From: Candidatus Termititenax persephonae
GTDB taxonomy: Bacteria > Margulisbacteria > Termititenacia > Termititenacales > Termititenacaceae
Assembly: GCA_003864475.1 (NCBI GenBank)
Contig: BGZO01000011.1
Coordinates: 1 to 41,785, forward strand
Direction: 5' to 3'
Length of the DNA: 41,785 nt
Positions 9,889 to 41,785 of this stretch are shown piece by piece. Below the pieces are notes generated by a model that saw only the letters and a list, made by a program, of their open reading frames with translations, made no database searches and was not told the DNA's origin. A program made the translations under genes and the position numbers. Within the stretch, counting starts at the first letter, position 1. Each line of letters starts with the position of its first letter.

Positions 9889-9907
9889 TTAATTATTAAA
9901 ACTAATA

Positions 9908-9937: not shown

Positions 9938-9961
9938 TGAATCATTTTTCAGCCAGCATTT

Positions 9962-9990: not shown

Positions 9991-9996
9991 AGGGCG

Positions 9997-14501: not shown

Positions 14502-17500
14502 ATGTACCGTTATTTGTTAAAAGTGATTGCGGAGAGACATGCCCCACCTAGCCTTAACGAAATCGTTAATGCCGATGCTCCACAGCAGAATGTGCCAAAA
14601 ATGGTCGCGTTTGATAGGCGGCAGGCTCTTGATGCTGAGTTGGAAAGAGCCAAAAATATAGATTTACAATTTTTCGCCGAAGATTCTCCGCTGACCGGGG
14701 AGGAGATTGCCGAGCGTCTGGATGTCAAAAAGAACGATATTCAGGTGCGGGAATACGAGAATAGCCCCCTGGCCTTGGTAACCCCAAGCAAAGGCGGGGA
14801 ACTGAATATCCGGATTGCCCCCCAGCAAAAAGTTACAGTGTCCCGGCCTTTCTTGGTGAATAAGCAGACCGGTCAGCCCGTGGGTCCCCTGCGGCTGGTC
14901 GAAAAGATAGTGCTGGAGATTGCTGGGCGCAAGATAGAGACGGGCAGTATCCGGGTAACGCTGGACGGAAATTTGCCATCCGTCTCGGACTCCGCGCAGG
15001 CGGCGGCGGACATGCCGAAAATCGCCCATATTATCAGGGGTACAAACAGGTCGTTGAATCTGAATGGTCAAAAAGCCGGGGCCAGTATGGAAAAATTAAA
15101 TATACTGAATAGCGAAGACACGGGGTACATTATTTATGACAACAACAAAGAGCCGTTATGGGTGGCCATAAGAAATAATCTCAATAGTCCCCAAAACCCC
15201 CAAGAAAAATTTAAAATTTATGAGGCAAAAACCGTGAACGACCAAGCATACCCCACATTGGTCCGGGAAATAACCGACGGTTCGGTACGCATAGAAATAG
15301 AAGGTAATATAAAAGGTGATTTTGAGCGGGTGTCTGCCGACAAACAGGCACTGGAGCAGGCGCTGGGGCAGAAAGATGCCCCTCCCCAAATAAACATTGA
15401 GCCGTATGTCAGTCAAACAGATAAATTATTGAAAATGCTCGGAACGGACGGCAGAGACATTGTTCCTAAATGGTCGATGCCGGTGAAAGTGCTGGACAAG
15501 GGCAGTATTGTCAATGCTTTATTGCTGGATTTTAACTATGCCGGACGGGGGATAATAGTGATAGACACGTATGGTCGGCAGTCCCCGATTGCCGCCTTGC
15601 CTGTCCGCGCTGGTCAGTCTGATGCCGTGAGTTATCGGTTTGTGGATGTTGAGATTCTGAAAAATGGCTATATCAATCTTGGCAAGGAAATAATCGGCAA
15701 GGATAACGCGGCTAGGATTGATTTGGCGCGGCGCATGCTGGCTAAGGCGGTGGAGATAGCCGCTCGGCAGGGAGGGCAGACGGCCTTGCCGCCAAAATTG
15801 GCAGAAATGGCGGTCGCCCAAGCGGGGACAAAAATAGGTCAATCACAGCCGCAAGACGGCGGCGCGGGAACGGCTGCCACGGTAAAAACGCCCGCAACGG
15901 CAGAGACTATCGCCGCCACGCAAGGGGCGAAAATATCTGTACCAGCGGATGCCAACGCTCTGCTCAAGGGTCAGGACGCGATACCGTCCACGCCGCGGGC
16001 GGAAAATGAACAGACAGAAAAACAAAACCAGCAGGATGAACAGCCGGAGCAGGGGCGGCAGGAAGATTCCGCCGAAAAGGACAATGAGTTCGCGGGAGAG
16101 CCTGGCCTTGGCTTGACACAGCAACAGCCGCTGGACCCTAGGAACGTGCCGGGGATTGACAGCAAGCAAGGTTCGGAAATCACATTGCGCCTGCCGGACG
16201 GTCAGGTTATTCAGGGTAACTGTCGGGCTATGGAAGACGGTCGTCGACTGCTTATTGTCAATAAGAATGATACTCCGCTTTATATTGCAGTGCCGATAAA
16301 TTCAGCGAATGGCAAACTTAAGGGATATAAATTTTTTGAAGTAAATATTGATGCCAAAAATGGTGTCCAGCAGGGTAAAGAAATTGATAACCTGATAATG
16401 TATAACAAGGATTTGTCTAAAATTGTTATAATAAATGATAAGGTAGCCAAGAACAAGACTCCCTTAAAAAAATTTCATGATAGGCATAAAGACAGTCTTC
16501 ATAGCGACATAGATATTACTAGAAGTAACTTGGGCTGGCTTAAAACTTTTGAAGATTTGGAGCGCGCCAGAGAGCAATTTGCTATAAATGACGATGTTAG
16601 AGAAACTCAGCTAAAACACTGGTCAGGTCCGCTGAACTTTTTTAGAAGATGTGGGGAAAATATTAAATGGTATCGTGATTTGTTGACGCATTATCCTCAT
16701 GTCGGGCTAACCTTGGTTACCCAGACTATCTTGCTAAGCGCGTTGCCGATTCTTTCATTCGCGTCCATAGCCGCTGCGGGCATTGGGCTGGCAGTATTTT
16801 TGCAAGCGGCGCCGATTATTATAGGAGGAATAGTTTGTACTTTCTTCTTTGGCGCTATTTTTTCGTTTGGCAAGAGTATGCATATCTATACCAAGACAAT
16901 GTTCGAGACGGACAAGAGCAAAGGCGAGGAAAACACTTGGCAAACCACGCTTAGTGGTAAAGCCGCGGAGATTTTTTTGCAGGCCATGAATGACAAAAAC
17001 CCTAATAATATCAATAAGGACAAGTGGGCGCGTTTCGAAAAATCCGAGGAGAATTCCGGTATCTTACTCGAGCGCGGGAAGGACGGCCACAGCCTGACGC
17101 TGAAGTTTAACACCTCGGTATCGCTAGAAGACTCGACCACATGGCTGCATTTGATGCAGGAAGATATTCTGCCTAAAGCAGAAAAGATTTTTGCCGACAC
17201 AGATAAGTGGAGAGATAAAACAAAAGAGAGATCATTAAGAAAATCATTAAAAGCAGACCGGATTGCGGCTGGTCAATTGGCGGGACTGGACTATTGGTCG
17301 CGGCAGCGTAACGCGCATACCTATGCCGGACGTAATGACCGCAACCGCACCGTGCGCTGGCAGCTGTGTCTGACTGATTTGGCTGACAAGCATCACCTAG
17401 AAGGTTTGGAAAAATATGCTTTACCTGCGGAATTAGAGAATCTGGCGGGCGTGTTTGTGGACACCAAAATAATTAAGATTGGACAGCACGAAGAGGAGTT

Positions 17501-20500: not shown

Positions 20501-23500
20501 GTTGGCTTATGAGGACTCCAAAGATATGGATTTGGTTGCCCAGGCTAGGATGGAAAGGGATAAAATCCTAAAACAGCGCGAGCAATCGGAGCTTTTTGTG
20601 CGCGATGCACAAGACGACCTTGTTGCCGTCAAAAATCCTTCCTCGAAGGTACTAATGCGGAAGTTGCTGAGAGATTATTTAAAATCTTTTGAAGATAAGA
20701 AAGGCACTGCTGCTGGTGGTGGTGCTTTTGTACAAATCGCCTACAGTGAGATTGCGCCACGGCTGTCGCAGGCCTTGTTAGACGCTTTAGATTATCTGCA
20801 TAATAAAAAGGGCAACCTTACGTTGAATATCTTTAAGTTTGCGGATTTTTCACAGGTCTCCAACGGCGAGGAAGGCAAGAGTATTTTTGACGGCAAGTCC
20901 GAGGCGGTGGTCGCGTCCTTTGACAAGAAATTAGGCAATATCCTGCCGTTGCTGGTTGAAATAGCCAAAAGTAAATTTACAAAAGACAATAAATTAATTG
21001 CACTCGACAGAATCGACGACATCGACGGCATGTGGGAATTGGCTGGTCTAAATAATAACAAGTCGCGAGCCGATCTTCTCAAGCAGATTGGGTGGCCAAC
21101 GAACAAAGGCTGGCCGGAGTTTAAAGGTAGAGAACACAAAGACCTCAGCGGCAGCGAGATGAGACTTTTGAACGCACTGTCCGCAAAATATCTTGAAAAA
21201 TTGCTGAAGGAATTCCTTGGCCTTGGGGATGACGAGTGGCGCGAGCTGAACACCGGAAATAAGAAAGGAAATAAGAAAGGAGATAAGGAAAAGGTTGACC
21301 AAATTAGAAAGAAAGCACTCCAAAACCTTACCAAGGAGTTAGACAATATTGTTGCTTTACTGGAAGAGGAATCTTATCTGCGTACTGATTTGGAATTGAT
21401 TTTTGTGGGGTGGGGCATGGCCAGAGACGTGGCTGAAGCGGCGGCAGTCGGTTTGTTTGAGGATGTGGTGTTGCACGGGGAGGACAAAAAATTTGCCTTG
21501 CCCGCAACTGACGATAAATCAAAGTCCGCAACTAACGATGCCAAGCCAGCAACTGACGATAAATCAGAGATTTATATCGACCCCCGCAAATGGGTGAATG
21601 ATTATCACAAGCTACATAATGCTGGGCATAAAGATGCTTTGACTAAAGAATCTAAAGACAAGGGACTGAGTTTCTTCACGGAGAATGTTCTGGGTAAATA
21701 TATAAAGAGTACGGCGGACAAAATGATAGATATAGAAAAAAAATGGCAAACGGAAACACTCAAATCAACCAACGAGCCGTCCACCATGTTTTATATGTAT
21801 CGGATTTGCCCGAAAATCTACAGCACTTTTAAGCCAGATTCGATAAACCAAACCATGACTGGCTCCAACGTCTTTGAGCATATTCAGATGACCATCAAGC
21901 TGGTGCTACAGCAATACAAAAAATATCATGGCAAGAGAAAAGCCTTGGACATCTGGCATGATTTGCAGGAGCGTATGGGACGGGACTCGCCGTCCGCCGC
22001 TTTTGCTGACTTCTTCTACCATGGCACCTTGCATTGCTTCGAGCCGATAATAACAAAGGCGTGTGAAGCTTTTGATGACTATGTAGCTGAAAATAAAGGA
22101 TTTGCCGACAATCACATGAATGTTTTTGCCGAGGATTTCCGGGACAAGCATGCTGAATACAAACTGGATCGTAAACGCAATATGCACAAAAAAATTGACC
22201 GGATTTTCCATGTGCTTATGCCGACGGTAATCGATTCTTACAATAGGGAAATACGAAGTAAAGAGTTTCAGGGTGCGCCTAGTGAAGAAATCGAAGCGTT
22301 GCAAAAACAGAAAGCCACGGCGGTGCGGGCGATGAACTCCGCGCATACCTTGAACGAAGTAATGGATGTGGTCTTGCGGACGGATTTTGATAAAGATAAT
22401 TACCTGACGAATGAATATCCCCGGTCGATATCCGCCCTGTGGCGGCCAGACAATGAAGGCAACTTCGCCAATTCGGATTATATTAATAATATTTTTGAAC
22501 AGCCGGGCGCCGTAGACCCCAACATCGATAGATATGTACATTCCGCCATGGTCAACAGCCACAACTTTATGAATGGTTATGCGGAGGCGACATCGGAGAG
22601 CCGCAGGCTGGGCGCTGGCACTCAACCGGAAGGTTGTTTTAACGGACACAATATGAAAGATTGGGAATATATTTATTATACGCTGTCCAAGAATTGTTAT
22701 ATATCTTCTGCGCCAGACGACAGGCAGGCACCGTTTATACCGCGCGCCATAGAGGTGGTGGTGGGCGGCATCCTGCATTTGCTGGTTTCGGGGCTGGTAT
22801 TCTCCTTGACTGGCGGCAATATCGTGGCGACGCTTGGCGCAAATTGGCTTACGCATAATATATTTATCCCACGGCTGAATAGAGCTATTCAGTGGGGAGC
22901 CCAGAAATGGTATGTATATAGTAGAAAAATGTATCCGCAGTTTCTTGAGCGGCATTTGACTTTGATTTCTAGTGAATCGTCGGTGGAAGATCGCAAAAAT
23001 CGGGATAAACAGTGGCTTTCACTGTCCCGCTTCTCCAAGCATTCTCCTGGCTATATCGGCAACGCGCCCGGCGAGCCTAAAACTTCCCGTGCCGCCCAGA
23101 TTAAACGTTGGTTTGGGGCGATAGTTGAAGGAGTTAAAGCCAATCTGCTCAATGCCAAGTGGTTAATCACCCACATGAAAGATTATTGTCTGCCCCAGGC
23201 GGTCTATGACCATATTCTTAACGGTTTTCAGGATGGCGAATACCAAGACCAATTCCCCAGAGCGTCATTGATTAATCAGCGTTTTGCCTTCACGCTGGTA
23301 TTATCCCTGATAGCAAGTGTTCCGGTGTTGACTTTTGCGAGCTCACTTCCGGCGATTCTTCTGGGCGGGGCGATTACAGCGATTGCTTTTAATTTGGCCG
23401 CGTCTTTTGCGCAATATTTCTTTATCAAACAGTCGATTAGCCACTACCATTACCACCGGGATGGCGTAACTAGAAAAATCGAAAAAGATGCTGACAATAC

Positions 23501-24086: not shown

Positions 24087-27000
24087 TGGGTACAATGTGG
24101 CACAATAAAAATTATGCCGTGTCCAGAGAAAATCCCAGACTAGGAACGGCTCCGGGCTGGCCGCCCAAAGGTCAGCCGCCTTACGGTTTGCTGGCAATCG
24201 GCGCGGCGGGCTTGGGCTTAGCTATGACAGGCTGCCGAGAAGACCATGCTCCTCAAGGGAATATCAAAGTAAAAGAAGAAATAGAAAATATTCCCCCGTA
24301 TACCTATAGTGACCCAGACACTCCGCCGGATATCCTGTCCAAAGTTTTGGCAACCGAGACGGATTACCAATGGGGGGAAGGAACTGTTCCGACCGTCTAT
24401 CAAAAATTTCTCTATGGCTTGCGCGGTTTTTGGCGGAATAGCTGGCTGGACGATTCTCGCCGCAACGGTCTCTTGCGCCGCACCAAGTACACCCAGGGGA
24501 GTCAGCCAGCCATGGACGTTTATTTTGTCCGCCAGACCGTGGACGATAAGTATGCTCCCGACAACCCGACCCGGCGCACTTATCTGAGCGACCTGATTGT
24601 TTCGGAGAGCGTATATTGGCTGCGTACCGCCGCTGGCATTCATTATGCCGGGGTATCCGTACGGGAAAGCCAAGATTTATTTAACAAAATGTTGACCGGT
24701 TTTGGTCTGATGGCTGATTTGGATGACAAAGGCGCTTTCCCGGCTTGGCGCGTACGCGCTGTCTATGATTCAGACACGGCAAATGGTCTGGCGCTAAAAG
24801 AGTTAGTCTTGGACGATTCCGACCCCGAACTGGACGCATCTAATTCCGCTTCCGATGCCGACCATGACTTGGTACGCGCTCTACTGGCGGCGGTGGACAA
24901 TGTACGGCGCGGATACTGGACAGAGGATGCAACTACCAAGGTCGAATGGCGCGGCCAGAAATATACCTATGCGGAGTTGCTGGATTTGCTGATTCCGGCT
25001 TTAAAGAAAGAATATATTCTTTTGCCAGGCAGTAAGGATATTTATATTATGAAGCCTTCGGAAGATGATTATGAGGCGACCGAGACAGAAAAAGATGTCC
25101 GCTTGGACTATCTCTCGCCCGGCACCTGTTTTGCCATCGCCGAACACTTAAAAAATAAAAGCCCTGCGGAAAATTCTTTGGGAGAGTGGTGGGCAGACCG
25201 CGGCCAGGACAGTATGAAAATTTATCTAGCCTGCTTGGACGCTCATGGTTATGTGCCGGAAAAATCTTGGGTTACTTATACAGACGACGGACAAATTAAG
25301 ATAGAAGCCAATGGCCGACAGGGCTACGACGGCATCCGGGCGCCGGAACGTATTGCCGACGGCTTGCGTTATCCCCAATACTTTACGCTGGATGATGGTC
25401 AAAGGCAGATTCTTCAGAATTATTTAGCCCGTTACTCCGAAGGCTATACCGTGCCTCAACAGGACGCGGCGGCTTATTTGCCTTTGGCCGTGCAGCTGGG
25501 GGAAACGGCGGCGGCGCAGACGATAGCCAAAAAAGCGGCGGAAGGCATGTCCCGGCAAAGTGTTTATGGGGATTCCGCTTCTTATTTTGAAACAGCATAT
25601 ATTGCGGCGACGCTGATTAATACCTTGTATCCCTACAATCCTCAGGCGGTTTATCGGGGAAAGATTAATGAGTCTGCGCCGCAGGAGCTGGTCAAGCTTG
25701 GGCTGCCCGGCAAATATTATTTGGAGAGCGGCGGTTATGGTCTGGTTTTCAATAATAAGACGGATGATGTGGCGGGCTATCATTTCAATGACTTTCTGCC
25801 CACGGGTTGGCAGCTCTTGACCTCCGAGGCGGTGGCTTATGATTTGGATATATCCTTGTACTACTATAATCATCCCGAGCAACATCCTGATAGGCAGACT
25901 AAACCGCCGAAAACGAGTAAAAAAGTGCAGGAAGAGATGGAACAGCGAATCTCCGCTTTGGTACGGACGCTGATTATGGCGACCGCGCAAAACCATTATG
26001 AGACGGATACTTACACGCGCCAAATGCCTTGGGCGATTATGACCAACGGTCAGGAATATCGGGTTGTCCAGCAGCCGGGTTTTGACGGTTTTGGCAATGC
26101 CACCGCGTCCGATGCGGATTTAAAAATATTGGCTCGCTTGATTAAAGTTAAGGACTTTAAATTATTTAAAGAAACGGAATTAGATTTTATGATTTCTCAA
26201 CTGGCCTTGGATTTTATTCAACAAGACACGGTGTCCTATCGAGATTCTGACGGGACTCCGCGTCGTTTTATGAATTCTGGAGCTTACCGCTCGGCGGCGG
26301 AGGATTTAAATACTGGAGAGATTTTGCATGAATTTCACACATCTTACTATGACCAATATGACTTGCAATTGGTTTCAGAATATTTTCGCCGTCCGCGGCC
26401 CCAAGATTCTAACTTTAAGGTTGGCGACGATTATTTGGAGCAGTCTTTTGCCATGCTGGCGGAAGATTCCAAGAGACTGCTGGAGCAGATTAAAGAAGTT
26501 TTTAGGTTTAACGAAAATTATCAAAACTTTCCCGATAAACTCTATCTGTGTGTTTCGGAAAGAGGCCTGCGGATTTTGAAAGTTTTGGATATAGAAATCC
26601 CGCCCGGCAACGACCCGGACAAACCAGAGTATAGACAAAAAGGCGGCGGCGGGGCTGACGATGACGGGGATGGTGTGCTGAATAAATATGATCAAGGTAG
26701 TCCAGCTTACTATTTAAAAGGCGGCGAAGGCTATAAACAAGAGGAAGCTATTATGGAATGGTGGCAGTATGATGCGCAAAAGGGAGAAATGGTTTTGGCT
26801 GCTTCCAGCACAAGTATTCAGGATTACCTGGATTTTTATCGCTATTATCAATCTGCCCCAGACCAGTATCAGATAGCTATCCGGCGCTTGGCTCTTAGCG
26901 GCGAGGATACGCCCCAGGGAGATTTGCGCAAACTGCTGGAACAAGACAGGGATGACGATGACTATTACCGCTATTATTTGACCGCCATGTACGAGGCCAG

Positions 27001-29320: not shown

Positions 29321-29338
29321 GAAAGCAGGTGAGTCGCA

Positions 29339-32300
29339 ATGTCTAGCATAGGTGAAAGACGAATAAACTGGGCAGCTGGGGTAGAGAACGGAACGGCTAC
29401 TCTCAAAATAGACGGTAATTTGGATGAAAAACCATATACCGCTTTGGATGCAGGACGTTCTATGTCTATAAACCAACATGATTACGATGCCCTGCTTCAA
29501 GCTTTTTTTGATGAGGTAGCCTATGTTGAGCGGAACGGCACAAGTGCTGCGCAGAAAGCAATAATGTTGTCTAGCTTGAAGGCCAAGCTGACATCTATGA
29601 CACAAAAAGATTCCAACTACGAAATCGAGCAAGTTCGTTCAATGGCTTACGCTAGAGTTTCTTTGACTATTGCCGTTGCTTCGGCTTATGAAAATGAGGG
29701 TAAAAGTTCTATAGCGCAAGATTACTATGATATGGCAAAGCGGCTATTACTTGCCTTGAATGAATCTGACGGACGGTCGGAAAAAAACCTGAATGAGTTG
29801 TATGGTACCTATTCTATGAAAGAAAATCTTACTACTACAGGAAACGGTGTTAATCCTAATAATGGAGCCAGTTCATTTGCCTTATTTAATCATACTAGAG
29901 ACCAGCAACTTTGGTTTTTATCAATGGCGTTGCAGTTAGTCGAAGAGGGGCGAATAACCGAAGGAGATGCCAAAAAAATAAGCGACATTTTGAGTGGTTT
30001 GGCAACTACTGCCAAGAACATTCGAGATGAATTGTTGAGCAAAGGCATTTATAGAATAGATAACGGAAAATACACTATGTTTGTTGAAAAAAAACAAAAC
30101 TACGATGATATGGTCGAAGCAGAAGACTTTTACAATTTAGCCGCCGCGTATTTTCAATGCAGGTCAAACCTTACAACTGGTGAAAGTAAATATGGGCAAC
30201 TCTATGAACAGATATGTAAAGCTAAAAAAGAAACGGTTGTTATGAATAAGAAAGAGATGGCAGAGGTAGTGTCAGAAGATTATGATTACGGTTCAATGAT
30301 TTATTTGCTGAAAATGCAAGTATTGAGCGATGCCTTTAATCTAAATCCCACAACTTACCTTGATGCTGTTGGAACAATTATTGATAAGTTCAATTTCGGG
30401 TTGACAACCGGGACAACAGGGTATCAGATGCCAACCCAAGCGGATTTTCAAGACATTTTGAGTAAAATCAAGGATCGTGTTAAGGAGCCAGTCGGAAGAA
30501 GAGGAGAAATTAGAAATCTTTCTAATAAGCAACTTGAATACAACACTTACGTGCAGGCTTATTACTTAAATCTGGCTTATCGACAGACGCTCGGTGATTA
30601 TACCGCCCTAGAAGAGCTTACCGGGAAAAGTGGAGATTTTTATAATCGAGACGGCTCGTCCAATGAAACAAACTGCTCATTGGCGACGCGTTTGCTAAAT
30701 AAAGAAAGTTCATCTTTCCAGCGTACTTTAGCTTTTGCCAGACGCGGTATCGCGACAATGAAAGTCGATATTGGCGGAATGAATGCTGGGTCAGCTAACC
30801 TTGGTTCTCCCAATTTAGTTGCCACCACGCCAGCGGAACGCCAGCAGGAATATTTTACGCGGGCCAAGGAATTAGCTTTACAGGCGGAAGAGGCACGCCG
30901 CGCGGGAAATCAGGGTGATTATGCCGCCAAATTGAGGACAAGAATCGCGCTAGATAATAGTGTTATCAATGAACTCAATAACACAGGGATAGCTAGACCA
31001 GCGTCCTACAATACGGGCAATAATTTATTTGCCCAGAATGTGCATTGTGATTTGGCGGAAGCTTATATTAGTTTAAGAAATGAAAATGATGCCAAAACTG
31101 AATACCAAACACTGAAAAAAGACTATCTCAACTTGCATAATTTACTTGACCCTACATCTGAAACTTATTATGTCAAACTCAGGAGTAGTTTCTCCAGCAT
31201 CGAACTCCGCTTCCTCTTCCTCGCCGCGCAGTTGGAGGATGATGAAAGTGTCCGCAAGAAGATTTTGGAAAGAATCAAGTCCTACTGCTCCCCGCCACAG
31301 GAAAAACCGGAGGATTTGCTGTCCGGCAAATTCCTCTACAACCGCCAGACTACGCGCAATTACTGGGAAGCTGTGGCCATGCTGGCGGAGCATGATGCCA
31401 AATATGCCGGAGAGATTAAAACAGAATTGGCTAGAGCAAAAACTAATAATGTTACCGATGTTTTTTATATCCAGCGGCTCTACAATAGAGTTTACTTCCT
31501 TGATGTTTTAAAAAGGCTGAAAGAATACAAAAAACAGGGCGAATGGACTGCGGCTATAAAATTGCTCGACAGTGATGGCACCGATGGTGTCGATAATGTC
31601 CAAAACACTTTGCTTGAATCCGACCAGCTGGCCGAGCTGTATTTCCAACGCGCCGAGTTTGAAAACCTGCGTTATGTTTATTCTCCGGCGCAGACCAAAC
31701 CAACAATGCTAGAGGACGGCCTGCCTGCCACGGTTACGGTTAATGGACATAAGATAACCATACCCGACACGCCGGCGAACCGTCAGCGGCTGATGTATAT
31801 CCGCCTAGCGCGTCTGGCCTCTGACCAAGAAAGAGACTATGCGGAAATTTTGAAACTAACTCAAGTTTTTGTGCAATGGGATTCGGACAATAAAAAATTG
31901 ACCTGTAATTTGCCGGGCGAATATACGGTCAAGGAATCTCCTGACAAGAAAAAAAGTCCAGAGCAGTACAATGCCGAATTCTGCGATGCCATGGTCTGCG
32001 CCTATTTCGAGGCCCTGAATTATCTGCGCGACAATAATCGTGCCGTGCTTTCCAGTAACAATGTCCCGCAGACTTTGGCGGAGATTAAGACGGCGTTTGC
32101 TTCTTATGAGGGCTGGCAGACCGCGCCGAGTAAATTGAATGAGGAGTTGGGAAAACTTACGCTGACCACTATTCAGGACGCGGAAGAGAAAGTCTGGTCA
32201 GATGCCAGGCTGCGCATACTCTCGCTGTACGCCGGGCTTAATGATGACACGGCGGTTTATGAGAATATCAGCGCCAAGTATTTGGGCTATAACAATGTTA

Positions 32301-35300
32301 AGAAAGCGACCAACGGTAATTATGCCTACAGTTCGCCGACGGCGCGCGCCTACTGGGAGGCTCTCCGTGGGCGGCTCGGCGTGCTGGCCAAAAATTCAGA
32401 AAACAATCTGGCAGGAATCAATGGTGTTTTTGATTTAATTGCCACGGAATATAATAATAAAAAAGAGGCTTCGTCTCTGGCTGATATTGCCTACATCCGC
32501 GACCTCTATGCCTATGCCTTGGCGGCGCAATGCTCTGCCGTGCTGTCTCAGTCGACGCTGACTACCGAAGAGTGCAGGACATTAGCCGCAAAAATTGCCG
32601 AGTTGGAAACATTGTATGGGACGATTGCCGCTGATTACGAAAAACGCGGCTGGACGAAAGAAATTGCCGAGCAGCGGGCGGGGCTGATTGATTTGCAGAC
32701 ACGCGCGGCCATGCTGTCCGACACTCTGGACCAGAAGCCGCAACAGGCAATTGATAATTTAAAAACGGTTTACGCTAAGTTTGGTTTGGGTGATGCGTCC
32801 AGCCCGGCAGACAAACTCTGCGCCGACATTATCCGCGGCAATGTCGAGGCCTTGCTTGCCGCGCATAGACAAAAAAATATCTCCCAGCCACGCCTGACTT
32901 TGCCGGACTGGCTCAAGGCTTATTCCGCAGTTGGTTTGACGGCAGATAGTTATGAAAAACTGTCCCAAGGTTATGAAAAACGTTTGCATATTTCTTTCCT
33001 GCTCAATCAAGCCAAGCTGGGCAATGAGCAGGCGGCCAAAACTTTGCAGGCTTTGCTGACGGACAGTCGCGCCGCCAAGACCACTGACGAGGTGGGCAAG
33101 GATTTCTTCGCCATAATCCAGCCGCGCTTGGATTTGGATGCGGCGTGGAATTCTCTGGACGCTGAGTATCATGGTTATTTGCCGCAAGGCATTAAAGCCG
33201 AGACCATTGCCCAGAGCTATCTCCGCTCTCAGTCCGCCAAGACGCAAGCTGAGGCAGAGGATTTGCTCCGTCTGGCTTGGTCGCAGGGCGATAATCCGCA
33301 GGCTGCCATTGACGGCGCGACGGTCGGCAACGTGTCTGTACCCGGCTATGCCGCCATAGCTAGGTCGATGAATCTTAACGACCCGCGGGCGCGCGGCGCG
33401 GTGGATAATCTGATTTCGCTTTACGGCTACCACCCGCTGACGCGTGATGCCGAGAAGAATAAAGGCCAATTAGCCGCCTTGGTCGAGAGCCTAGAAAAAG
33501 TTCAGTCCAACGACCCGCCTGACCCAGAATTCGCCCAAGAATTGTACGTCAAAGCCCTGCTGGCGCAGAGCGAGGGTTATTATCGGCAGGGTGAGATGGC
33601 AAAAATGGCGGCCATGCTGGACAGCGTGCAAAGGCTTTTGTCCGGCGAAGTTAGCAACGAGGAAAAAACCGAACAGTATTACGCTTACTGCGAACAGCGC
33701 ATCCGCCTGTTCCTGAAGCAGGCGCAGAATAGTGGCCGGGCGGCGGCGGATATTGCCAAGGGTTTGGCGGGTTTACGTGAAGAATTTAATTTAATCAGTC
33801 CCGCCAATCTGCCGACCAGCTTGACCGAGAAATTATTGGATTCCTTTATTACAGTTAATAAGCCGGGAGAAGAGACTGCCGTTATCGTGCCGAATCTGGG
33901 CAAAGAGGTAAACGATTGTTTTAAGGATTTTGGCGAGGACTTGGCCAAAGACCTGGCCGCCTGCCGTAAATATCTGCTGGAGACCTGCCAGACCAATTAT
34001 CAACGCCAATTGTTTATCGGCATCTTGAGCAATCTCGCCAATCTGACCGCGGGCAAGACGATTGACACCGAGACTGCCGCCAAGCTCGTCGAACACGGCG
34101 ACGCTGACCATTATGAACAGTTGGTGGAAGGGCTGTTGTTTGATGACAAATATCTGCCGACCGAGCAGGCGCGGAAATTTCTGGGCTCCAAATTTGCGGC
34201 GGAAGTTGTCAAGCCGCGTCTGCGTCTGGGCATGGCATGGCTCGGCGTATCTGGCTCTGACAAGGAGTCGATTGACCACGAGATTAAGCCCGGCTGGCTG
34301 GCGGTGGCCAAGGCCGTAGTTGAGGACATTGATGCTTTGGTCAAGGACAATGCGGTGGCACGTACAGAACTGCGGGAAGTGGATGATTTGCGTTACTTCG
34401 CGTTGATTAAGAGCGGCGAGGCGGAGCAGATTAAGAAGGCTTTGGACTATTATCTCGCGCAGGCTTCCACTGCCAATACCCAATCTCTGATAGCGAGCGC
34501 GTATGCCTACGATTTGCGCGAATATGCCCAGGCGTTAGAGTACATCGCTAGTATTGACCAAGGCATCCTAACTGGCGCGTCGCTCAACCCGGTTCTTTTC
34601 TCGATAGCGATGGACTGCTGGAGCAAGCAAGAGCCTAGAAAAGCGATACCCCAAGATATAGTGCAAAACTACATTGCCGCCACCACAACTCAGCCGGGAC
34701 TTTACGCCAGCGACAGAGAAAAATACGCGCTGGCCAATATTATCTGCTCCTATGTCGACCAGCAGTTAAAAAATTATGATACGGAAAGCCTCTCTTGGCT
34801 GGACAACATTATCCTGCCCTCGACAGAACACTCGCCGCAGGGACGCAGATATGTCGAGGAGCGGATAAACTTACTGCAGGCCAGGTCGGCCATGGCGCAG
34901 CGCAATTATGCGGCGGCGCGCGCGGCGCTGGAAGAGCTGCTGGCAAGATTGGCAGATGTCCAGGATGTGCTTCAGCCGCATCCCTTTACTTATCTCTACA
35001 ATGATGTGCTGCGGCAACTGGCCACCATCGCCGAGGTGCAGGGCGATTACGACTCCGCGCTGGGATTCTTGAACAATGTTACTTATAAAAGCACTGATGC
35101 CAAGGAAGTAACGCAGTTGGGGTTCTATGACAAGTTGCAGAGAGCCGGGGTTCTGTATGCCAACGGTACTGCGGCTGATTGCGCCTTGGCGCGGACGTTA
35201 CTGAACGAAGTGCTGAATAATAATAAATCCCTGCCGCCGGAAGACCAATGCCTAGTTTATTTCAAGCTGTTGGACATTGCCTTCGCGGACAAAGAGCAGG

Positions 35301-38300
35301 CCAGAACCAATCCACAGCATATTGTCAGCCTGTTAATCCAGCTGGGTGCGCTTAAATCAAATATGAACACTGAGAATCTATTGCTCTACGAATTACAGCG
35401 TGCCGCCTGCGCTGAGTTGTTGTCGGATACTGAACAGCGCGCCGCCGCCTTAGTTAATGCCCGCACGCAGGCTGCTCTGTTGCCTGAGTTTGTTCGCCGG
35501 GAATACCTTGACCTGCTTGACGATTTAGAAAATTATCGGCGCTTGGAATGCCGTGATTTTGCCAAAATCAACGCAGGCATGTCTTGGGCAACCTTGGCTT
35601 TGGCGCAGTTGGACACCGCCGACGGACTCAAGGACGAAGAGCATTTTCTGACCACACGGATTATTTACCTCAATGGTTTGATTACGCAGGGCGACGTTGA
35701 CGCGCTGACAAAGATTGAGGCTGATTTGGCTGTTTTAACCCCGGAAGCCCTGTCCCAGCTGGCGACAAAAGGCCTGCAAAATCTAGTGCAAAAATACTGT
35801 GCCGAATTGCTCCTGCTCCAATACACTTTCCGGCGTGCGCATTGCCGTTTTGACCCGGACGGAAAGATGAATGAGAGAGACAAGGATACCCTTGCCCAGC
35901 TTGAGGCAAATTTGACCGCGGCGATTGGCCAACTGCCAGAAGCGGCCAAAAATGATTTTACTAAACGTCTATCCGCTCTGCGCGACAACGCGATAGACAT
36001 TCCGCCTTACGATATGCTGGCGGATGAGTTGACCAAAGCCGTGGTTGATTTGCAGGGCAATTCGGAGCAGACCGATTTTTGGCAATTCAAGAAAAAACTC
36101 GACAAGGCGCTGGATTATGCGGTCGCCCTGCGCGGCGGCGGGGTGGCCTCGCCGGAAGAATTGATACAGGCGCTGGATACGCTGTATGGCCTTGACCTTG
36201 GTCTGGCTGCCGGAGAGTATGCCAATGGACGGATAATGCGCTATGTCTCCGCCTTCCAGGACAAAAGGCAAAAAGAGTTGCCGGGTTTTGAATTCACGCC
36301 GGAGGAAAAAGGCTTCGGTTATTATCTTTTGCTGAAACTCTTGAAGAATGATTCGCGCTATGAGCAGGTGCTGGCGCGCGCGCGCGCGGAACAGGCGCAG
36401 GGTCAGGGTTTGCTCGCCGACCGCGGCGCGGATTGGTATCCAGAGTCCAGCGCCTTGATTATTAAATATGTGAATGACCAGATTGACAGGAACAAAAAAC
36501 TAAAGCCGGGAGAACAAAAACCTTGGCTGAATGAAATACAGAGAGAAAAAGAAGCCAGCAAAACCCAAGGCACCGCCAAGATTTTACCCGAGATTGAGTA
36601 TGTGCCGAGCGGCAACTTGGTGGCGGATTACAATGCCATGAGCCGGGAAAATAATGTAGACCAGAAGATTGCTATGGCGGAAAAATCACTTAAATTGCCG
36701 TCCACCGCGGTCTTGCAGGGCAATACCCCGCATACGGCGCTCAAGATGCTGTTGGATTATCTGAACGCGCTGATTCGGTCGCGCGACGAGAATAATGCAT
36801 TCCAAGACAGGAAGATTGAGGCCTTGTTCAAGTTTATGGCTGGCCTGTCGCCTCAAGAGTCGTCAGCCGAGCAGAATTTATCGGCGGTGCAAGAGTCTTT
36901 AGCGAACTCCCATTATTACCAATTAAAAATTGCCACGCTGAAAATCCAGTACGGCGCGTCTGTTTTATCTGAGGCGGTCAATCGCCGAGACTGGAACAGC
37001 CCCGCCATGGACGGTTATATACAAAACGCCAAAGACCTTTTACGCGCCAGGCAAATAAAGCTGGGTGAGCAGGATAAAGAAGACGCGGAATATACGTTTA
37101 TCGAAAATTTATTAAATGTTTTGGACGGCGGGACGGCCGTGTCGGCGGATTATCACGATTTGCCGGAGGACGCTCTGTACCTCTACGTGGATTTAACCTA
37201 TCGCCTGTCGGCGGCTCTGCTGGCGCAACGGCAAGCGTCGCCTCGGCGCTTGGATAAGGCGGGCAAGGAGATGCTTAATGGTTTGGTGGCTTTGCTTGAG
37301 GCTTTGCCTCAGGACGAAAAGCATGAGGGTGTCCCGCCTCTACAGCGGGCAATAGATGAAGCGGCCACAAAATTTTATTTAGATGGATTTTTTAGTTTTG
37401 GCTTCGGACAAAACAGTTCCGAGTCAGATTGGAATTCTACTATCGCAAACCAATATTTGCTAACCCCTATCGAAACTTCCGGCGGTTTTTCAACCGAGAC
37501 GGCCACGTCTATTATTGGCTTGGCTGCTCGGCTTGGCTATAGACCGACTAACTTTTTTGGAATACGTCTGATGCCGGGTCTGGATTTCTTGTTTATTAAA
37601 AACAGGGATAGTTTCTGGAATGAGAAACTCGACTCGGTCAGAGAGGGATTTCCTATCATCAATAATGATAATTTTAACAATACTGACCATCGTTTTCTTG
37701 TGGCGCCCAAGCTGGGATTTGGTTTGGATTTTACCGCTCCGTCGCTGGGCTGGGGTTGTTTGACTTGGAACAACTCGCTCAGTCTGGATGCGAATTGGAG
37801 CCTGACTCCCCAATTGCGCTCGCCTTATGCCGCCGCGCGTTTTGGCGAGGAGACTCACTGGAACAATAATTGGTCTGGGAACGCGGCGTATATCGGTCGC
37901 CTAGGTTTTAGCAAGCGGTTTGGCTTGGAATTGCGCGACACCTTTGGTCTCAGCAGGTCGGAGAGCCGGGTGTCAAGCGAGACGGATGATTCTTATATGG
38001 AAGAGTTATACTTGGCCACTGCTTGGCGCAATCGGGTCGGCGGGCGGTTTGTTTTTAATCCTACTGGTCGCTGGTCGTTCTATGCAGGCGGGGACTACCT
38101 GTACGAGAAAGCCACTGATTCATACAGTCTCTGGCAGGAAGTGGACCGTCATGGCTGGGGCGCGGAACTGGGCGCGTCGTATTATGGCAAGGCGGTTGCG
38201 CTGAGCCTATCAGCCAATTTCAGCCAGTTAGCACAATATTCGAGGAACATGGGCATCAATTTTCAGGTTACACCGCTTGGTATATTTGACGGCAGGCTTA

Positions 38301-38494
38301 CTTTATTTGCTGGCGTGGGGATAGATTGGCTCCCAGGCTCGTCCATAACGGGGACAAAGACCGTTACCGCTACAGACAAATCTGGAGCAAACCCTGTTAC
38401 CACGACTACCGTTACCAATAATATAGACACGCGTCCTGACCAGACAAACCTTAGGGTAAATGTGGGTGTGAAAATCCCGTTAGGCGGGAAATAA
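29339..38494 (+). CDS. giant alpha-solenoid/TPR protein with C-terminal beta-barrel (3051 residues)
   Basis: Residues about 1-2680 are helical with many TPR-like pairs (for example SSIAQDYYDMAKRLLLAL, DYDSALGFLNNVTY, YAAARAALEELLARLADV). Residues about 2683-3051 switch to alternating hydrophobic/polar strands rich in Gly, Tyr, Trp and Asn (for example VAPKLGFGLDFTAP, WSFYAGGDYLYEKA, GWGAELGASYYGKAVALSLS). That pattern is expected of an outer-membrane barrel of about 14-16 strands. TPR plus barrel is the architecture of BcsC and PgaA exopolysaccharide porins, but it is several times larger. No signal peptide is present and an in-frame stop at 29330-29332 precludes an upstream start. AGGTGAG at 29327-29333 supports ATG 29339. 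The first 1.8 kb is visibly AT-richer than the rest. Confidence 0.78.
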   Translation: MSSIGERRINWAAGVENGTATLKIDGNLDEKPYTALDAGRSMSINQHDYDALLQAFFDEVAYVERNGTSAAQKAIMLSSLKAKLTSMTQKDSNYEIEQVRSMAYARVSLTIAVASAYENEGKSSIAQDYYDMAKRLLLALNESDGRSEKNLNELYGTYSMKENLTTTGNGVNPNNGASSFALFNHTRDQQLWFLSMALQLVEEGRITEGDAKKISDILSGLATTAKNIRDELLSKGIYRIDNGKYTMFVEKKQNYDDMVEAEDFYNLAAAYFQCRSNLTTGESKYGQLYEQICKAKKETVVMNKKEMAEVVSEDYDYGSMIYLLKMQVLSDAFNLNPTTYLDAVGTIIDKFNFGLTTGTTGYQMPTQADFQDILSKIKDRVKEPVGRRGEIRNLSNKQLEYNTYVQAYYLNLAYRQTLGDYTALEELTGKSGDFYNRDGSSNETNCSLATRLLNKESSSFQRTLAFARRGIATMKVDIGGMNAGSANLGSPNLVATTPAERQQEYFTRAKELALQAEEARRAGNQGDYAAKLRTRIALDNSVINELNNTGIARPASYNTGNNLFAQNVHCDLAEAYISLRNENDAKTEYQTLKKDYLNLHNLLDPTSETYYVKLRSSFSSIELRFLFLAAQLEDDESVRKKILERIKSYCSPPQEKPEDLLSGKFLYNRQTTRNYWEAVAMLAEHDAKYAGEIKTELARAKTNNVTDVFYIQRLYNRVYFLDVLKRLKEYKKQGEWTAAIKLLDSDGTDGVDNVQNTLLESDQLAELYFQRAEFENLRYVYSPAQTKPTMLEDGLPATVTVNGHKITIPDTPANRQRLMYIRLARLASDQERDYAEILKLTQVFVQWDSDNKKLTCNLPGEYTVKESPDKKKSPEQYNAEFCDAMVCAYFEALNYLRDNNRAVLSSNNVPQTLAEIKTAFASYEGWQTAPSKLNEELGKLTLTTIQDAEEKVWSDARLRILSLYAGLNDDTAVYENISAKYLGYNNVKKATNGNYAYSSPTARAYWEALRGRLGVLAKNSENNLAGINGVFDLIATEYNNKKEASSLADIAYIRDLYAYALAAQCSAVLSQSTLTTEECRTLAAKIAELETLYGTIAADYEKRGWTKEIAEQRAGLIDLQTRAAMLSDTLDQKPQQAIDNLKTVYAKFGLGDASSPADKLCADIIRGNVEALLAAHRQKNISQPRLTLPDWLKAYSAVGLTADSYEKLSQGYEKRLHISFLLNQAKLGNEQAAKTLQALLTDSRAAKTTDEVGKDFFAIIQPRLDLDAAWNSLDAEYHGYLPQGIKAETIAQSYLRSQSAKTQAEAEDLLRLAWSQGDNPQAAIDGATVGNVSVPGYAAIARSMNLNDPRARGAVDNLISLYGYHPLTRDAEKNKGQLAALVESLEKVQSNDPPDPEFAQELYVKALLAQSEGYYRQGEMAKMAAMLDSVQRLLSGEVSNEEKTEQYYAYCEQRIRLFLKQAQNSGRAAADIAKGLAGLREEFNLISPANLPTSLTEKLLDSFITVNKPGEETAVIVPNLGKEVNDCFKDFGEDLAKDLAACRKYLLETCQTNYQRQLFIGILSNLANLTAGKTIDTETAAKLVEHGDADHYEQLVEGLLFDDKYLPTEQARKFLGSKFAAEVVKPRLRLGMAWLGVSGSDKESIDHEIKPGWLAVAKAVVEDIDALVKDNAVARTELREVDDLRYFALIKSGEAEQIKKALDYYLAQASTANTQSLIASAYAYDLREYAQALEYIASIDQGILTGASLNPVLFSIAMDCWSKQEPRKAIPQDIVQNYIAATTTQPGLYASDREKYALANIICSYVDQQLKNYDTESLSWLDNIILPSTEHSPQGRRYVEERINLLQARSAMAQRNYAAARAALEELLARLADVQDVLQPHPFTYLYNDVLRQLATIAEVQGDYDSALGFLNNVTYKSTDAKEVTQLGFYDKLQRAGVLYANGTAADCALARTLLNEVLNNNKSLPPEDQCLVYFKLLDIAFADKEQARTNPQHIVSLLIQLGALKSNMNTENLLLYELQRAACAELLSDTEQRAAALVNARTQAALLPEFVRREYLDLLDDLENYRRLECRDFAKINAGMSWATLALAQLDTADGLKDEEHFLTTRIIYLNGLITQGDVDALTKIEADLAVLTPEALSQLATKGLQNLVQKYCAELLLLQYTFRRAHCRFDPDGKMNERDKDTLAQLEANLTAAIGQLPEAAKNDFTKRLSALRDNAIDIPPYDMLADELTKAVVDLQGNSEQTDFWQFKKKLDKALDYAVALRGGGVASPEELIQALDTLYGLDLGLAAGEYANGRIMRYVSAFQDKRQKELPGFEFTPEEKGFGYYLLLKLLKNDSRYEQVLARARAEQAQGQGLLADRGADWYPESSALIIKYVNDQIDRNKKLKPGEQKPWLNEIQREKEASKTQGTAKILPEIEYVPSGNLVADYNAMSRENNVDQKIAMAEKSLKLPSTAVLQGNTPHTALKMLLDYLNALIRSRDENNAFQDRKIEALFKFMAGLSPQESSAEQNLSAVQESLANSHYYQLKIATLKIQYGASVLSEAVNRRDWNSPAMDGYIQNAKDLLRARQIKLGEQDKEDAEYTFIENLLNVLDGGTAVSADYHDLPEDALYLYVDLTYRLSAALLAQRQASPRRLDKAGKEMLNGLVALLEALPQDEKHEGVPPLQRAIDEAATKFYLDGFFSFGFGQNSSESDWNSTIANQYLLTPIETSGGFSTETATSIIGLAARLGYRPTNFFGIRLMPGLDFLFIKNRDSFWNEKLDSVREGFPIINNDNFNNTDHRFLVAPKLGFGLDFTAPSLGWGCLTWNNSLSLDANWSLTPQLRSPYAAARFGEETHWNNNWSGNAAYIGRLGFSKRFGLELRDTFGLSRSESRVSSETDDSYMEELYLATAWRNRVGGRFVFNPTGRWSFYAGGDYLYEKATDSYSLWQEVDRHGWGAELGASYYGKAVALSLSANFSQLAQYSRNMGINFQVTPLGIFDGRLTLFAGVGIDWLPGSSITGTKTVTATDKSGANPVTTTTVTNNIDTRPDQTNLRVNVGVKIPLGGK
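36375..36388 (+). repeat. (CG)7 dinucleotide run
   Basis: Seven CG units inside the TPR/barrel gene, encoding alternating Ala and Arg (ARARA). Two-base slippage here would shift the frame before the barrel. Confidence 0.85.
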
Positions 38495-38552
38495 AATGTG
38501 CAATAAAGTCGCGCTAGTTACGATAACTTATTAGGGAAAGGAGTGGAAGATT

Positions 38553-40571
38553 ATGTTCAATCCGAAACTTATCTCTGACCCGCCAAGCGGTAAGCCCAGA
38601 TTGCGCCGGGGCTGGGCGGCAATTATTACCGCCGCCTTTACTGCTTGCGCCCTGCCAACTCTGGAGATAGAAAAAGAGCCAGAAACAGAAGAGCAGGATG
38701 TGTCCAATGAAGAACAGAAATATAACAATCAAATAATCTTTTACGGTGGCCGCCCGGAAGAGCAAAACCTAAATCTGGCCGGAGATAAAAAGGTAATCAC
38801 TGGAAAATTCCTAGAAAATCGCAATGACGCGGTGGAAGTAACCGTCAATGAAAGTCAAAAAGAAAATTACAGCACGCTGGACTATCAGGAATTGGCAGGT
38901 TTGACGATTAAACTGGACGAGTTTTATAAAAACAAGCCTGACGCGGGGGACATCACTTTTGGATTTGAGGGTTTGGGTAATTTTAATTTTGAGCGGCTGA
39001 TTGTCAGCGTGTCGCCAAACGTAAAGGACGAGCATGGAGAAGAGTATAAATATGTGGGCGATTATATAAATCGTCCTTACGACGAATATCAAAAATACGT
39101 ACAGACCATGATTAGCGTGCCGCTGTATCAGATGGACTGGGACAATGTTGCCCGGAATGAGCCAAAGGCTTATGACAATCCTGCCACTTATGGTCTGACC
39201 GTCAATCGAGAGGCGAAGACGATAATTATCAATCTCGCCCCGCGCGAGGTCTATGTGCATAATCTCATGCACAAAAATCCGGAAACTAAAAGAACCAATA
39301 TTACAATTTCAGATATTGAGAAACATTCCGTGAAATTTTCTGTCCAAGGGGTAAGCCATTTACCGGCAGAAGAAAAATGGTCATATCTAGGCGTGAATCT
39401 GGCGCAGCAGACTGACCATATCCAGCTAGCCCAGCGGGCGGACGGGACTACCAGATACGACCCTGTTTTTAAGATTCAAGGACTGGACGGCGGCGTGTCC
39501 TTTAAACTGGACACTGATGAGCAAAAACTGGAGTACCGCGTCGTGCTGACTACCGCGACTGATGAGACGCTGATATATTCTCCTGAAGAATATTCTAATA
39601 GCACGGCGGTGTTTGTCCCTTGGCAGAATTTTCATGAGGATTTTTATCTGACAGCATTTGGCGCGGCGGCGGGTTTTACCGATGACGGTGATGCGTTGCG
39701 GATAGATTTATCCCGGGAAGAGGATTCCAGAATTACCATCACAGATAAATCTAAAGAAACTGAAAGTGGCCAGCCGCCCTTAGCCAAAGTCAATCTGACT
39801 GAAAATTATCACAACCAAAAAAATGGCTATTTGCGTTTGCGCGTCAAGGGCGGTGGCAATTTTGACTGGGAGAGTTTCGTGCGCGGTATCCGTCCCACTC
39901 TTTCCTGCCGCGACGGCGAGGCCCCAGAGGCTTATTATTCGCTGGACATGCATTTTCCCCGCCACCCAGACCAATTGGCGGCCTTTAAGACGTATGTTGC
40001 TGACGGCGGCTACTGGGACATCAAGATTCCGCTCTCCTGCGTGAATGATGCCAATGGTTTGCCGTCCGGCGAGTTGACCGTAACGGGCGTGTCTTTCACG
40101 CGGAATAAAGATTTTGTCGTCCCGCAGGGATACGAGTATAAATATGACATTGTGGAGATTGCGCTGACTGATGATAATCCGGACGCGGAGCATCTCTTAC
40201 CGCTTACCCCAGTGAACAGAAACCAGCCGCTTAAAGGTATCGGCTTATCCCTGCTCGGCGAGGCTGGCGCGGCGCTGGATAATATCACTTGGAGCGAATT
40301 GGCTTTGCGTCCGACCGCAGCCGACACGGCGCTACCGCTGGATTTCCTACGGCGCATCAGTTCCATGCCTGGAAGAGGCGCGAAAGTGTCCTTCGGCGTT
40401 TATACCGGCCAGTATGAGAACGAAGACAAGGCCAACCAAATATTCCGTCCCTACGAGAAAGAAGAATTGCCAATCCGATATAGAGTTGCGTCGCTAAGTG
40501 GTAATATAACAAATATCGAGTGGGCAACTGTGCTGCAAAAATATTTGCCAGAAGAAGAAAAAGGAGAATAA
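38553..40571 (+). CDS. beta-rich envelope lipoprotein with duplicated domain
   Basis: A 672-residue protein. Its lipobox FTAC puts the lipidated residue at Cys32, after a basic, proline-containing N-terminus (FNPKLISDPPSGKPRLRRG). The hydrophobic stretch is short. The mature part is beta-rich and contains two related segments: GLGNFNFERLIVSVSP (about 132-147) and GGGNFDWESFVRGIRP (about 432-447), each followed by a similar strand series. This suggests duplicated beta-sandwich domains, perhaps carbohydrate-binding; that function is a guess. A strong AAAGGAG (38537-38543) precedes the ATG by 9 bases. It is a paralogue of the next gene (YGLTVNREAKTIIINL against YGITFDEAAMTVKIDL; YRVVL against YRVVF). 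Confidence 0.75.
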   Translation: MFNPKLISDPPSGKPRLRRGWAAIITAAFTACALPTLEIEKEPETEEQDVSNEEQKYNNQIIFYGGRPEEQNLNLAGDKKVITGKFLENRNDAVEVTVNESQKENYSTLDYQELAGLTIKLDEFYKNKPDAGDITFGFEGLGNFNFERLIVSVSPNVKDEHGEEYKYVGDYINRPYDEYQKYVQTMISVPLYQMDWDNVARNEPKAYDNPATYGLTVNREAKTIIINLAPREVYVHNLMHKNPETKRTNITISDIEKHSVKFSVQGVSHLPAEEKWSYLGVNLAQQTDHIQLAQRADGTTRYDPVFKIQGLDGGVSFKLDTDEQKLEYRVVLTTATDETLIYSPEEYSNSTAVFVPWQNFHEDFYLTAFGAAAGFTDDGDALRIDLSREEDSRITITDKSKETESGQPPLAKVNLTENYHNQKNGYLRLRVKGGGNFDWESFVRGIRPTLSCRDGEAPEAYYSLDMHFPRHPDQLAAFKTYVADGGYWDIKIPLSCVNDANGLPSGELTVTGVSFTRNKDFVVPQGYEYKYDIVEIALTDDNPDAEHLLPLTPVNRNQPLKGIGLSLLGEAGAALDNITWSELALRPTAADTALPLDFLRRISSMPGRGAKVSFGVYTGQYENEDKANQIFRPYEKEELPIRYRVASLSGNITNIEWATVLQKYLPEEEKGE

Positions 40572-40573
40572 CC

Positions 40574-41692
40574 ATGCAGATTAGTTCCAAACATATAGCC
40601 AATCAACCGGAGTTATTTCTGCCCCGGGTAGGCGGCAGGCCCAAGCCTAACCCCAAGCCCAGTCGGTTATTGGCAGGCATAGGGGCGGGAATATTGGCCA
40701 CGTCTTGCGACCTTCTTGTCGGCGGGCCGACTGGTGAAAAAAATGAATATCCGAAACCAACGGATGAAGATGCGAATCCGCCGGCTACAGAGCCGCTAGT
40801 GCCTCCCAATCCCCTCGACCCTCCCAGCGATTTTATCCCCGGTGATGAAGTTCCTGAGACTATTCCCAAAACTCCCCCGCCGGATTGGCAAGGCGCGGCG
40901 ATAGTTTTTGCCGGAGGCGTTATTTACCACAATAACAGCACTATCTATGTGAGAATCGACCACAGCGAAGCTCCGCGGCTGACAGACGGTCTGTCAGGTG
41001 AGGCCGCTGAAGCTGACTATCAAAGTGAAAAAAGACGGCTCAGCGGTCTGCGCCTGGATTTGGCAGAATACCGCCGCCAGTATCAGGAACTGCACGGCGA
41101 GTTGCCCCGAGAGATTATTTTGCAGTTCGAACAGTACCCGGCAATGAATAATTTTTCGCTGGCAATACTCAAGCGTTTTAAGATTAGCTTGTACGACAGC
41201 ACCAGCGCGGAGCTGGCCGACACGCTGGCCAATAAAAGCTTGAGAAATGCCCACACTATCGACGTGTCGCTTGACCCCAGCCAAAATGCCCTGCCCACCT
41301 TGGCAGAATACGGCATTACTTTTGACGAGGCGGCTATGACCGTCAAGATTGATTTAACCCAGCGCACGATTAGCTGGGATAATATTATGCGGGATGAGGG
41401 CGCGGGTACGGTAGCTTCTTATATTCAGAGGTATGAGTCTACCGCCGAGGGCGGGGTTAAGTTTAATATGCAAGCCAGACCTGCGTCCACAAAAGACTGG
41501 GCTTTTATCGGGGTTTACTATAATGACAAGTTTGATTTGCCCTTGGACAGCGGCAAGACATTTAGTTATAAATTGTCTAATTTCGTAGCGCCAGATTATG
41601 GCCACGACGAGAAAGACGCGGGGTATCGAGTGGTTTTCAGCTTCGGCAAGAAAGCGGACGGCGTAGTTCATCAACCTCTGTTTGTAAATTAA
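40574..41692 (+). CDS. beta-rich envelope lipoprotein, 3' end artefactual
   Basis: A 372-codon frame starting at ATG 40574, two bases after the preceding stop, with AAGGAG at 40561-40566. The N-terminus is proline-rich (RVGGRPKPNPKP), then a hydrophobic stretch and lipobox ATSC with Cys45, then a Pro/Glu-rich linker to about residue 115. The remainder is a beta-rich domain paralogous to the upstream lipoprotein. Codons up to about 362 (ending KKAD) are genuine. The final 10 residues and the stop come from the inverted copy of 28863-28989, so the real protein continues beyond and is truncated here. I expect the full protein to approach the length of its 672-residue paralogue. Confidence 0.72.
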   Translation: MQISSKHIANQPELFLPRVGGRPKPNPKPSRLLAGIGAGILATSCDLLVGGPTGEKNEYPKPTDEDANPPATEPLVPPNPLDPPSDFIPGDEVPETIPKTPPPDWQGAAIVFAGGVIYHNNSTIYVRIDHSEAPRLTDGLSGEAAEADYQSEKRRLSGLRLDLAEYRRQYQELHGELPREIILQFEQYPAMNNFSLAILKRFKISLYDSTSAELADTLANKSLRNAHTIDVSLDPSQNALPTLAEYGITFDEAAMTVKIDLTQRTISWDNIMRDEGAGTVASYIQRYESTAEGGVKFNMQARPASTKDWAFIGVYYNDKFDLPLDSGKTFSYKLSNFVAPDYGHDEKDAGYRVVFSFGKKADGVVHQPLFVN

Positions 41693-41785
41693 TATATTGG
41701 GGATCGGTAGACCGGATACGTTCCTGTAGCTCGATGCGGTAAATCGCGCCATGGAGTTTGTAATAAGCGCTCCAGCCCGTGGCAT
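41659..41785 (-). repeat. 127-bp exact inverted copy of 28863-28989 at the window end
   Basis: All 127 bases match the reverse complement of 28863-28989; the match breaks at 41658 (A, where C would be needed to pair with 28990 as G-complement). It reaches the last base of the window. On the minus strand it reads in the frame of the GH8 lipoprotein. Most likely a contig-end or fold-back assembly artefact; a true inversion cannot be excluded. Confidence 0.95.

Follow-up and report, generated by a model that had tools for sequence, protein, structure and literature searches.

Gene content and conservation of the locus

The window (the whole stretch of DNA that was analysed, 41,785 bp) is the full source contig of a 1.83-Mb draft genome in 201 contigs. 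Five genes on the plus strand, P1 to P5, form one tight operon (Table 1), in which P1 and P2 overlap by 4 nt and gaps of 18, 58 and 2 nt separate P2 from P3, P3 from P4 and P4 from P5, respectively. On the 5' side of P1, the window contains dapF, an aminotransferase gene and a gene for a DUF4143 ATPase. The earlier note had listed five genes on this strand; their open reading frames and the operon stand, except that the end of the fifth gene is artefactual and its start was revised (see below).

Table 1. Features of the operon and of the contig end; positions refer to the window.
Feature	Position	Strand	Length	Description	Basis
P1	14502..24086	+	3194 aa	predicted inner-membrane protein, mostly helical	open reading frame, hydropathy
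P1 D-K-D	22389..22397	+		invariant residues 2630-2632	six-sequence alignment
P1 VED...QxxRW...E	22983..23129	+		invariant residues 2828-2830, 2866-2870 and E2876	six-sequence alignment
P2	24083..29320	+	1745 aa	lipoprotein, tandem GH8 and about 900 further residues	open reading frame, lipobox Cys51, alignment
P2 GH8 domain 1	24500..25702	+			profile matches, catalytic residues
P2 GH8 domain 2	25715..26482	+		degenerate	second GH8 profile match
P3	29339..38494	+	3051 aa		open reading frame
P3 helical-repeat region	29339..37180	+		weak TPR signal	TPR_16 match
P3 C-terminal region	37373..38491	+		predicted beta-barrel	AlphaFold model, fold matches
P4	38553..40571	+	672 aa	lipoprotein, beta-rich by sequence appearance	open reading frame, lipobox Cys32
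P5, as first called	40520..41692	+			open reading frame
P5, revised	40574..41653	+		P4 paralogue, cut by the contig end	alignment, ATG and AAAGGAG
Contig end	41654..41785	.		artefact, inverted copy of 28863-28993	blastn self-comparison

The conserved part of P3 was used as query over named genomes and gave three matches, i.e. Candidatus Termititenax aidoneus NkOx7-01 (Margulisbacteria, termite gut; BGZN01000003.1, 119,151 bp; G001:C3) and the Margulisiibacteriota bins Gx481_bin108 (G003:C165) and Pcl387_bin129 (G007:C51). The first two belong to the same genus as the window and the third to the same family. The order P1-P2-P3-P4-P5, whose conservation the earlier note had proposed as a check, is kept in both T. 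aidoneus and Gx481_bin108. In T. aidoneus, the operon is preceded by dapF, the aminotransferase gene and a small gene, and downstream of P5 lie genes for three proteins: one secreted, of 2,390 aa; a barrel protein of 314 aa; and one of 204 aa that weakly matches radical SAM. Gx481_bin108 has the T. aidoneus order from the aminotransferase gene onward to the limit of its contig, and in a further genome (G006) P4, P5 and these downstream genes come after the end of P3. Because these relatives carry two or three extra genes after the fifth, the operon extends past P5 and its earlier description as a five-gene unit had to be given up. A second, partial P1-P2 pair is present in the source genome itself (G000:C71, L037).

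The GH8 lipoprotein P2

A profile of ten P2 sequences matched CelA (1kwf, 3.5e-6) and an Enterobacter glucanase (7f82, 1.8e-3) in the PDB, and E. coli BcsZ in hhalign (P=2.6e-7). Active-site residues named for BcsZ include the acid, the base and two others (PMC8805304). E175, D258, D416 and R419 of the first GH8 domain align to E55, D116, D243 and R246 of BcsZ; judged by these residues, domain 1 appears to be catalytically complete. The GH8 profile matched P2 a second time (P=7.3e-5), and in this second domain the region of the base Asp is not conserved in T. aidoneus. The double-GH8 lipoprotein described in the earlier note was thus confirmed by the two profile matches and by the lipobox. Domain 1 shares with BcsZ and CelA the catalytic Glu, the two Asp and the Arg, and the profile similarity is significant; P2 differs from them in being a lipoprotein of 1745 aa with a GH8 tandem, a degenerate second copy and about 900 unmatched residues.

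The single P2 sequence gave no GH8 match in Pfam. One of its relatives matched PF01270 (3e-6), and three GH8 stretches of the related operon in genome G008 score above the curated Pfam cut-off. In the same genome (G008:C20, 11850-28556), a gene next to the relatives of P1 and P2 encodes a protein of 5569 aa, in which two GH8 domains exceed the Pfam cut-off. Stand-alone GH8 genes occur elsewhere in the genus, and no signal peptide was found in their proteins (L067, L069). Two candidate assignments were rejected: a match of P2 to Phage_sheath_1C was below the cut-off and was taken as chance, and a P2-P3 read-through fusion is in frame in the window but not in T. aidoneus or Gx481_bin108.

The giant protein P3

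By sequence appearance, the bulk of P3 is helical. Pfam gave a single TPR match (TPR_16, residues 1845-1911, E=3.8e-4), which is below the curated cut-off. The AlphaFold model of residues 2615-3051, calculated from four sequences, consists of three helices followed by long antiparallel strands; its mean pLDDT is 60, much of the first strands reaches about 70-87, and the values are low towards the end. All 50 matches listed by Foldseek for this region are membrane barrels, comprising TonB receptors, autotransporter domains, FapF, porins and one mitochondrial barrel. The scores are weak, with a best E of 1.7e-3 and query TM-scores of 0.11-0.35 among the matches listed. On this model, a beta-barrel is the best reading of the P3 C-terminus. 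Of the TPR-like protein ending in a barrel that the earlier note had described, the barrel-like end is therefore retained on a medium-quality model and the 50 matches listed, whereas the TPR assignment stays below the cut-off.

No signal peptide was found in P3 of the window, T. aidoneus, Gx481_bin108 or Pcl387_bin129 (loci including L071, L073 and L059). The open frame of P3 continues for at most a few residues further upstream, which leaves no room for one. A P3 free of a signal peptide is hard to reconcile with insertion into the outer membrane. In P3 relatives, an EF-hand-like DGxLxxxEY stretch was observed at the start.

In P3, as in BcsC and PgaA, a long stretch of putative helical repeats precedes a C-terminal barrel, which for P3 is predicted, and its gene adjoins a GH8 gene. 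It differs from them in length (about 3000 aa vs 1157 and 807 aa), in a TPR signal below the cut-off, in the lack of a signal peptide and in having no significant sequence similarity to either. In genome G021 (family f7), the gene after a P2 relative encodes an unrelated-looking protein of 2,800 aa with a C-terminus that is barrel-like in sequence.

The lipoproteins P4 and P5 and the contig end

P4 and P5 are mutual paralogues, and counterparts of both occur in T. aidoneus, Gx481_bin108 and G006. The paralogy proposed earlier holds in the alignment. A likeness to BcsB, which the earlier note had suggested checking, does not: hhalign gave no signal between P4/P5 and BcsB, and the P4/P5 profile had no match in the PDB. 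In the lipoproteins of the operon, the n-region ahead of the lipobox is unusually long (24083-24235, 38553-38648 and 40574-40708 in the window) and often rich in Gly and Pro (GGxPP-like); the same holds for the counterparts in T. aidoneus and G006. In this they differ from the genomes' ordinary lipoproteins. At its N-terminus, P1 has a similar short motif, MYxYLLKVI...PP.

In a blastn self-comparison, the contig terminus was 99.2% identical over 132 bp to a segment of P2 in inverted orientation. This terminal copy is an assembly or amplification chimera; such inversions are frequent in amplified single-cell DNA. Since P5 runs into the copy, its final codons and the stop called at 41692 are artificial. 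In the relatives, the protein at this position has about 630-700 aa. The start of P5 is most likely ATG 40574 rather than GTG 40520, judged by the sequence; this ATG lies 2 nt past the P4 stop and is preceded by a Shine-Dalgarno-like AAAGGAG.

The membrane protein P1 and the search for a synthase

Hydropathy peaks common to P1 and its relatives indicate a membrane hairpin around residues 742-790 and another three within the final 460 residues, which bears out the earlier assignment of P1 to the inner membrane. Compared with each other as an internal repeat, the hairpins gave weak pairwise scores. P1 had no match in Pfam, NCBIfam or the PDB. In a profile search among 74 genomes of the phylum, it was found only in the family of the window and in G008. 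An alignment of six sequences, with 19-26% identity, has few invariant residues, which include the two motifs given in Table 1.

The second of these motifs resembles the TED-36-QxxRW acceptor pattern of the GT2 enzymes BcsA and PgaC and is followed by a Glu six residues past the Trp. In ten processive GT2 synthases, the spacing from TED to Q is exactly 36; in P1, the corresponding spacing from D to Q is 36 in the window and 45 in G008, and four relatives have 37. Shuffling of the invariant letters produced the pattern in 0 of 300,000 cases, which is not a fair probability because the pattern was chosen after it had been seen. The best alignment of a ten-sequence GT2 profile around the QxxRW of P1 is in the GT2 register, and the profile match to P1 is not significant (P=0.32, acceptor part). 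No similarity to E. coli BcsA, PgaC and others was detected in hhalign. A membrane hairpin is predicted between DKD and VED; we know of no GT2 enzyme with a hairpin at that place. The AlphaFold model of residues 2200-3194 had a pLDDT of 42 and was not used.

P1 is like BcsA and PgaC in being membrane-bound and in having TED-like and QxxRW motifs at the same spacing, and unlike them in its 3194 aa, the absence of profile similarity, a hairpin inside the putative catalytic region and the absence of PilZ. A homologue of the cyclic beta-glucan synthases (GT84-GH94) was also considered. These are likewise giant membrane proteins, and a member of the phylum, G010, has one of 2910 aa; however, the hhalign comparison of P1 with two such sequences of the phylum (P=0.19) was no better than the reversed control (0.095), and the candidate was rejected. 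The earlier note had seen no synthase motif. P1 has the VED-36-QxxRW pattern, but none of the profiles was significant and no synthase was demonstrated.

Genes downstream of P5 in relatives

In the relatives, P5 is followed by a gene for a secreted repeat protein of about 2,300-2,400 residues (P6) and by one for a PorV-family barrel (P7). The gene after that of the 2390-aa protein matched the PorV family NF033709 (1.5e-18), and the 2390-aa protein itself had a weak Por_Secre_tail match. These matches recall the PorV/PorQ family and T9SS-type tails; the scores are below the curated cut-offs. The C-terminal part of P6 and its PorV-type partner are the best conserved parts of the operon, with 80-93% between genus members; the values for P1-P3, by contrast, fall to about 25-58%. 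Many giant proteins of the genus, several of them beside PorV-like genes, carry the C-terminal domain of the 2390-aa protein (L072, 4554-12672), a recurrence that suggests a T9SS-like sorting route.

Comparison with secretion systems and possible functions

By their published definition, synthase-dependent systems combine a synthase in the inner membrane with a c-di-GMP part, an enzyme that modifies the polysaccharide in the periplasm, and a TPR domain coupled to an outer-membrane pore; the helical (TPR) domain coupled to an outer-membrane barrel is their defining export part (PMC7112194). P2, a GH8 protein with a lipoprotein signal, is the candidate for the modifying enzyme, and it directly precedes P3 as bcsZ directly precedes bcsC in E. 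coli. As far as sequence similarity goes, P2 is the only protein of the operon that resembles its Bcs counterpart. PilZ, another point that the earlier note had proposed to check, was not detected in any of the six genomes of the genus that were searched, while matches were obtained in five control genomes. Conventional GT2 genes are present elsewhere in the source genome (14 PF13641 matches). Although it is laid out like a synthase-dependent system, the operon should not be filed as a member, because the PilZ form of c-di-GMP control is absent, the synthase and the TPR pore are at most putative, and P2 may face either side of the outer membrane. From the polysaccharide secretion system proposed earlier, the two GH8 domains, the barrel-like end and the conserved order are left; PilZ and a BcsB likeness were not found, no synthase was demonstrated, and the TPR signal is weak. 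The operon, with a layout that by analogy looks like cellulose-type secretion, is conserved in relatives of a termite-gut bacterium.

With somewhat less than even confidence, we favour the reading that the operon encodes a divergent trans-envelope machine for a beta-glucan-type polysaccharide, working like Bcs or Pga. P1 would make or feed the polymer from the inner membrane, P2 would trim it in the periplasm, P3 would span the periplasm and let it out via the barrel, and the chain would be guided or bound by P4 and P5. Further downstream, the giant repeat protein may, with its PorV-type partner, display adhesive material at the surface, perhaps for attachment to spirochaetes, for which Termititenax is known in termite guts. 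This reading is supported because the nearest named relatives of the two GH8 domains are CelA and BcsZ, the long helical P3 has a barrel-like end, P2 and P3 follow each other as do bcsZ and bcsC, and the order P1-P2-P3 is kept in T. aidoneus and Gx481_bin108. The P2 relative of G021, which adjoins another giant with a barrel-looking end, and the GT2 spacing of VED-36-QxxRW-5-E in P1 also argue for it. It is weakened because P1 has no significant similarity to BcsA, PgaC, the GT2 profile or the cyclic-glucan synthase and has a hairpin between DKD and VED unlike GT2 enzymes, because PilZ is absent from the genus and P4/P5 are unlike BcsB, and because P3 lacks a signal peptide and conventional GT2 genes exist elsewhere in the genome. 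If the operon secretes a glucan, it would represent a synthase-dependent system whose giant parts had gone unrecognised, from a phylum that is uncultured, and it could be the means by which Termititenax cells attach to spirochaetes. That P1 itself is an unrecognisably divergent polymer synthase with a GT2-type acceptor region, and the operon a new oversized secretion class without PilZ-type c-di-GMP control, we regard as unlikely; the P1 motif offers a residue-level test for such a hidden synthase. For four of the five operon proteins, the libraries searched contain no matching described family.

A machine for degradation and uptake would fit the GH8 domains and the wood-feeding habitat almost as well. 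It would capture and digest wood cellulose or another beta-glucan at the surface by a Sus-like logic, in which P2 cuts, P4 and P5 bind, the barrel of P3 admits oligosaccharides and P1 couples or scaffolds from the inner membrane; this main rival is judged somewhat unlikely. It gains from the closeness of the GH8 domain to CelA, a secreted cellulase, from the three lipoproteins of the operon, the stand-alone GH8 genes and the absence of PilZ from the six genus genomes, and from GH94 phosphorylase-type genes, which are widespread across genus and phylum as expected of cellobiose users. The description of Termititenax reportedly inferred cellulose fermentation. However, P1 would be left without explanation, no SusD-like or TonB-dependent protein was found in the window, and P3 has no Pfam match to TonB-dependent receptor families. 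Nor, to our knowledge, is a helical repeat scaffold fused to a barrel an uptake architecture. If cellulose is digested, the operon would give a symbiont of the termite gut an unusual machine at its surface.

The strong conservation of the P6 C-terminal part and the PorV-type partner relative to P1-P3, together with the occurrence of the P6 tail on many giant proteins, several beside PorV-like genes, is also consistent with an apparatus for protein display or adhesion, in which P1 and P3 would be structural giants serving P6 and its partner and the GH8 protein would locally clear or remodel glycan. Such an apparatus is decidedly unlikely, as P6 and P7 may form a separate transcription unit and many other giants with the P6 tail were not observed near a P1-P5 operon. 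It is very improbable that P1-P3 act mainly inside the cell or periplasm on storage or cell-wall glucan, with another beta-rich fold at the P3 end: no signal peptide is present in P1, P3 or the stand-alone GH8 proteins and the P3 barrel model is of medium quality only, but all its listed fold matches are membrane barrels, and P2, P4 and P5 carry lipoprotein signals.

Sequences flanking the operon

A 52-bp direct repeat (98%; 12805-12856 and 14156-14207) flanks the DUF4143 ATPase gene, and its second copy is followed by an apparent alternative 3' end of the aminotransferase gene (...EAVDRLGRILR*). The arrangement suggests that the DUF4143 ATPase gene was inserted here and that the aminotransferase gene had its end duplicated in the process; T. 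aidoneus and Gx481_bin108 have other genes at this spot. On the 3' side of the T. aidoneus operon (about 97306-101688), there is a gene of Cas9-like appearance with cas1- and cas2-sized neighbours, and a Cas12a-looking N-terminus was noticed on another contig of Pcl387_bin129 (G007:C93, about 9553-9999), both by the look of the sequence.
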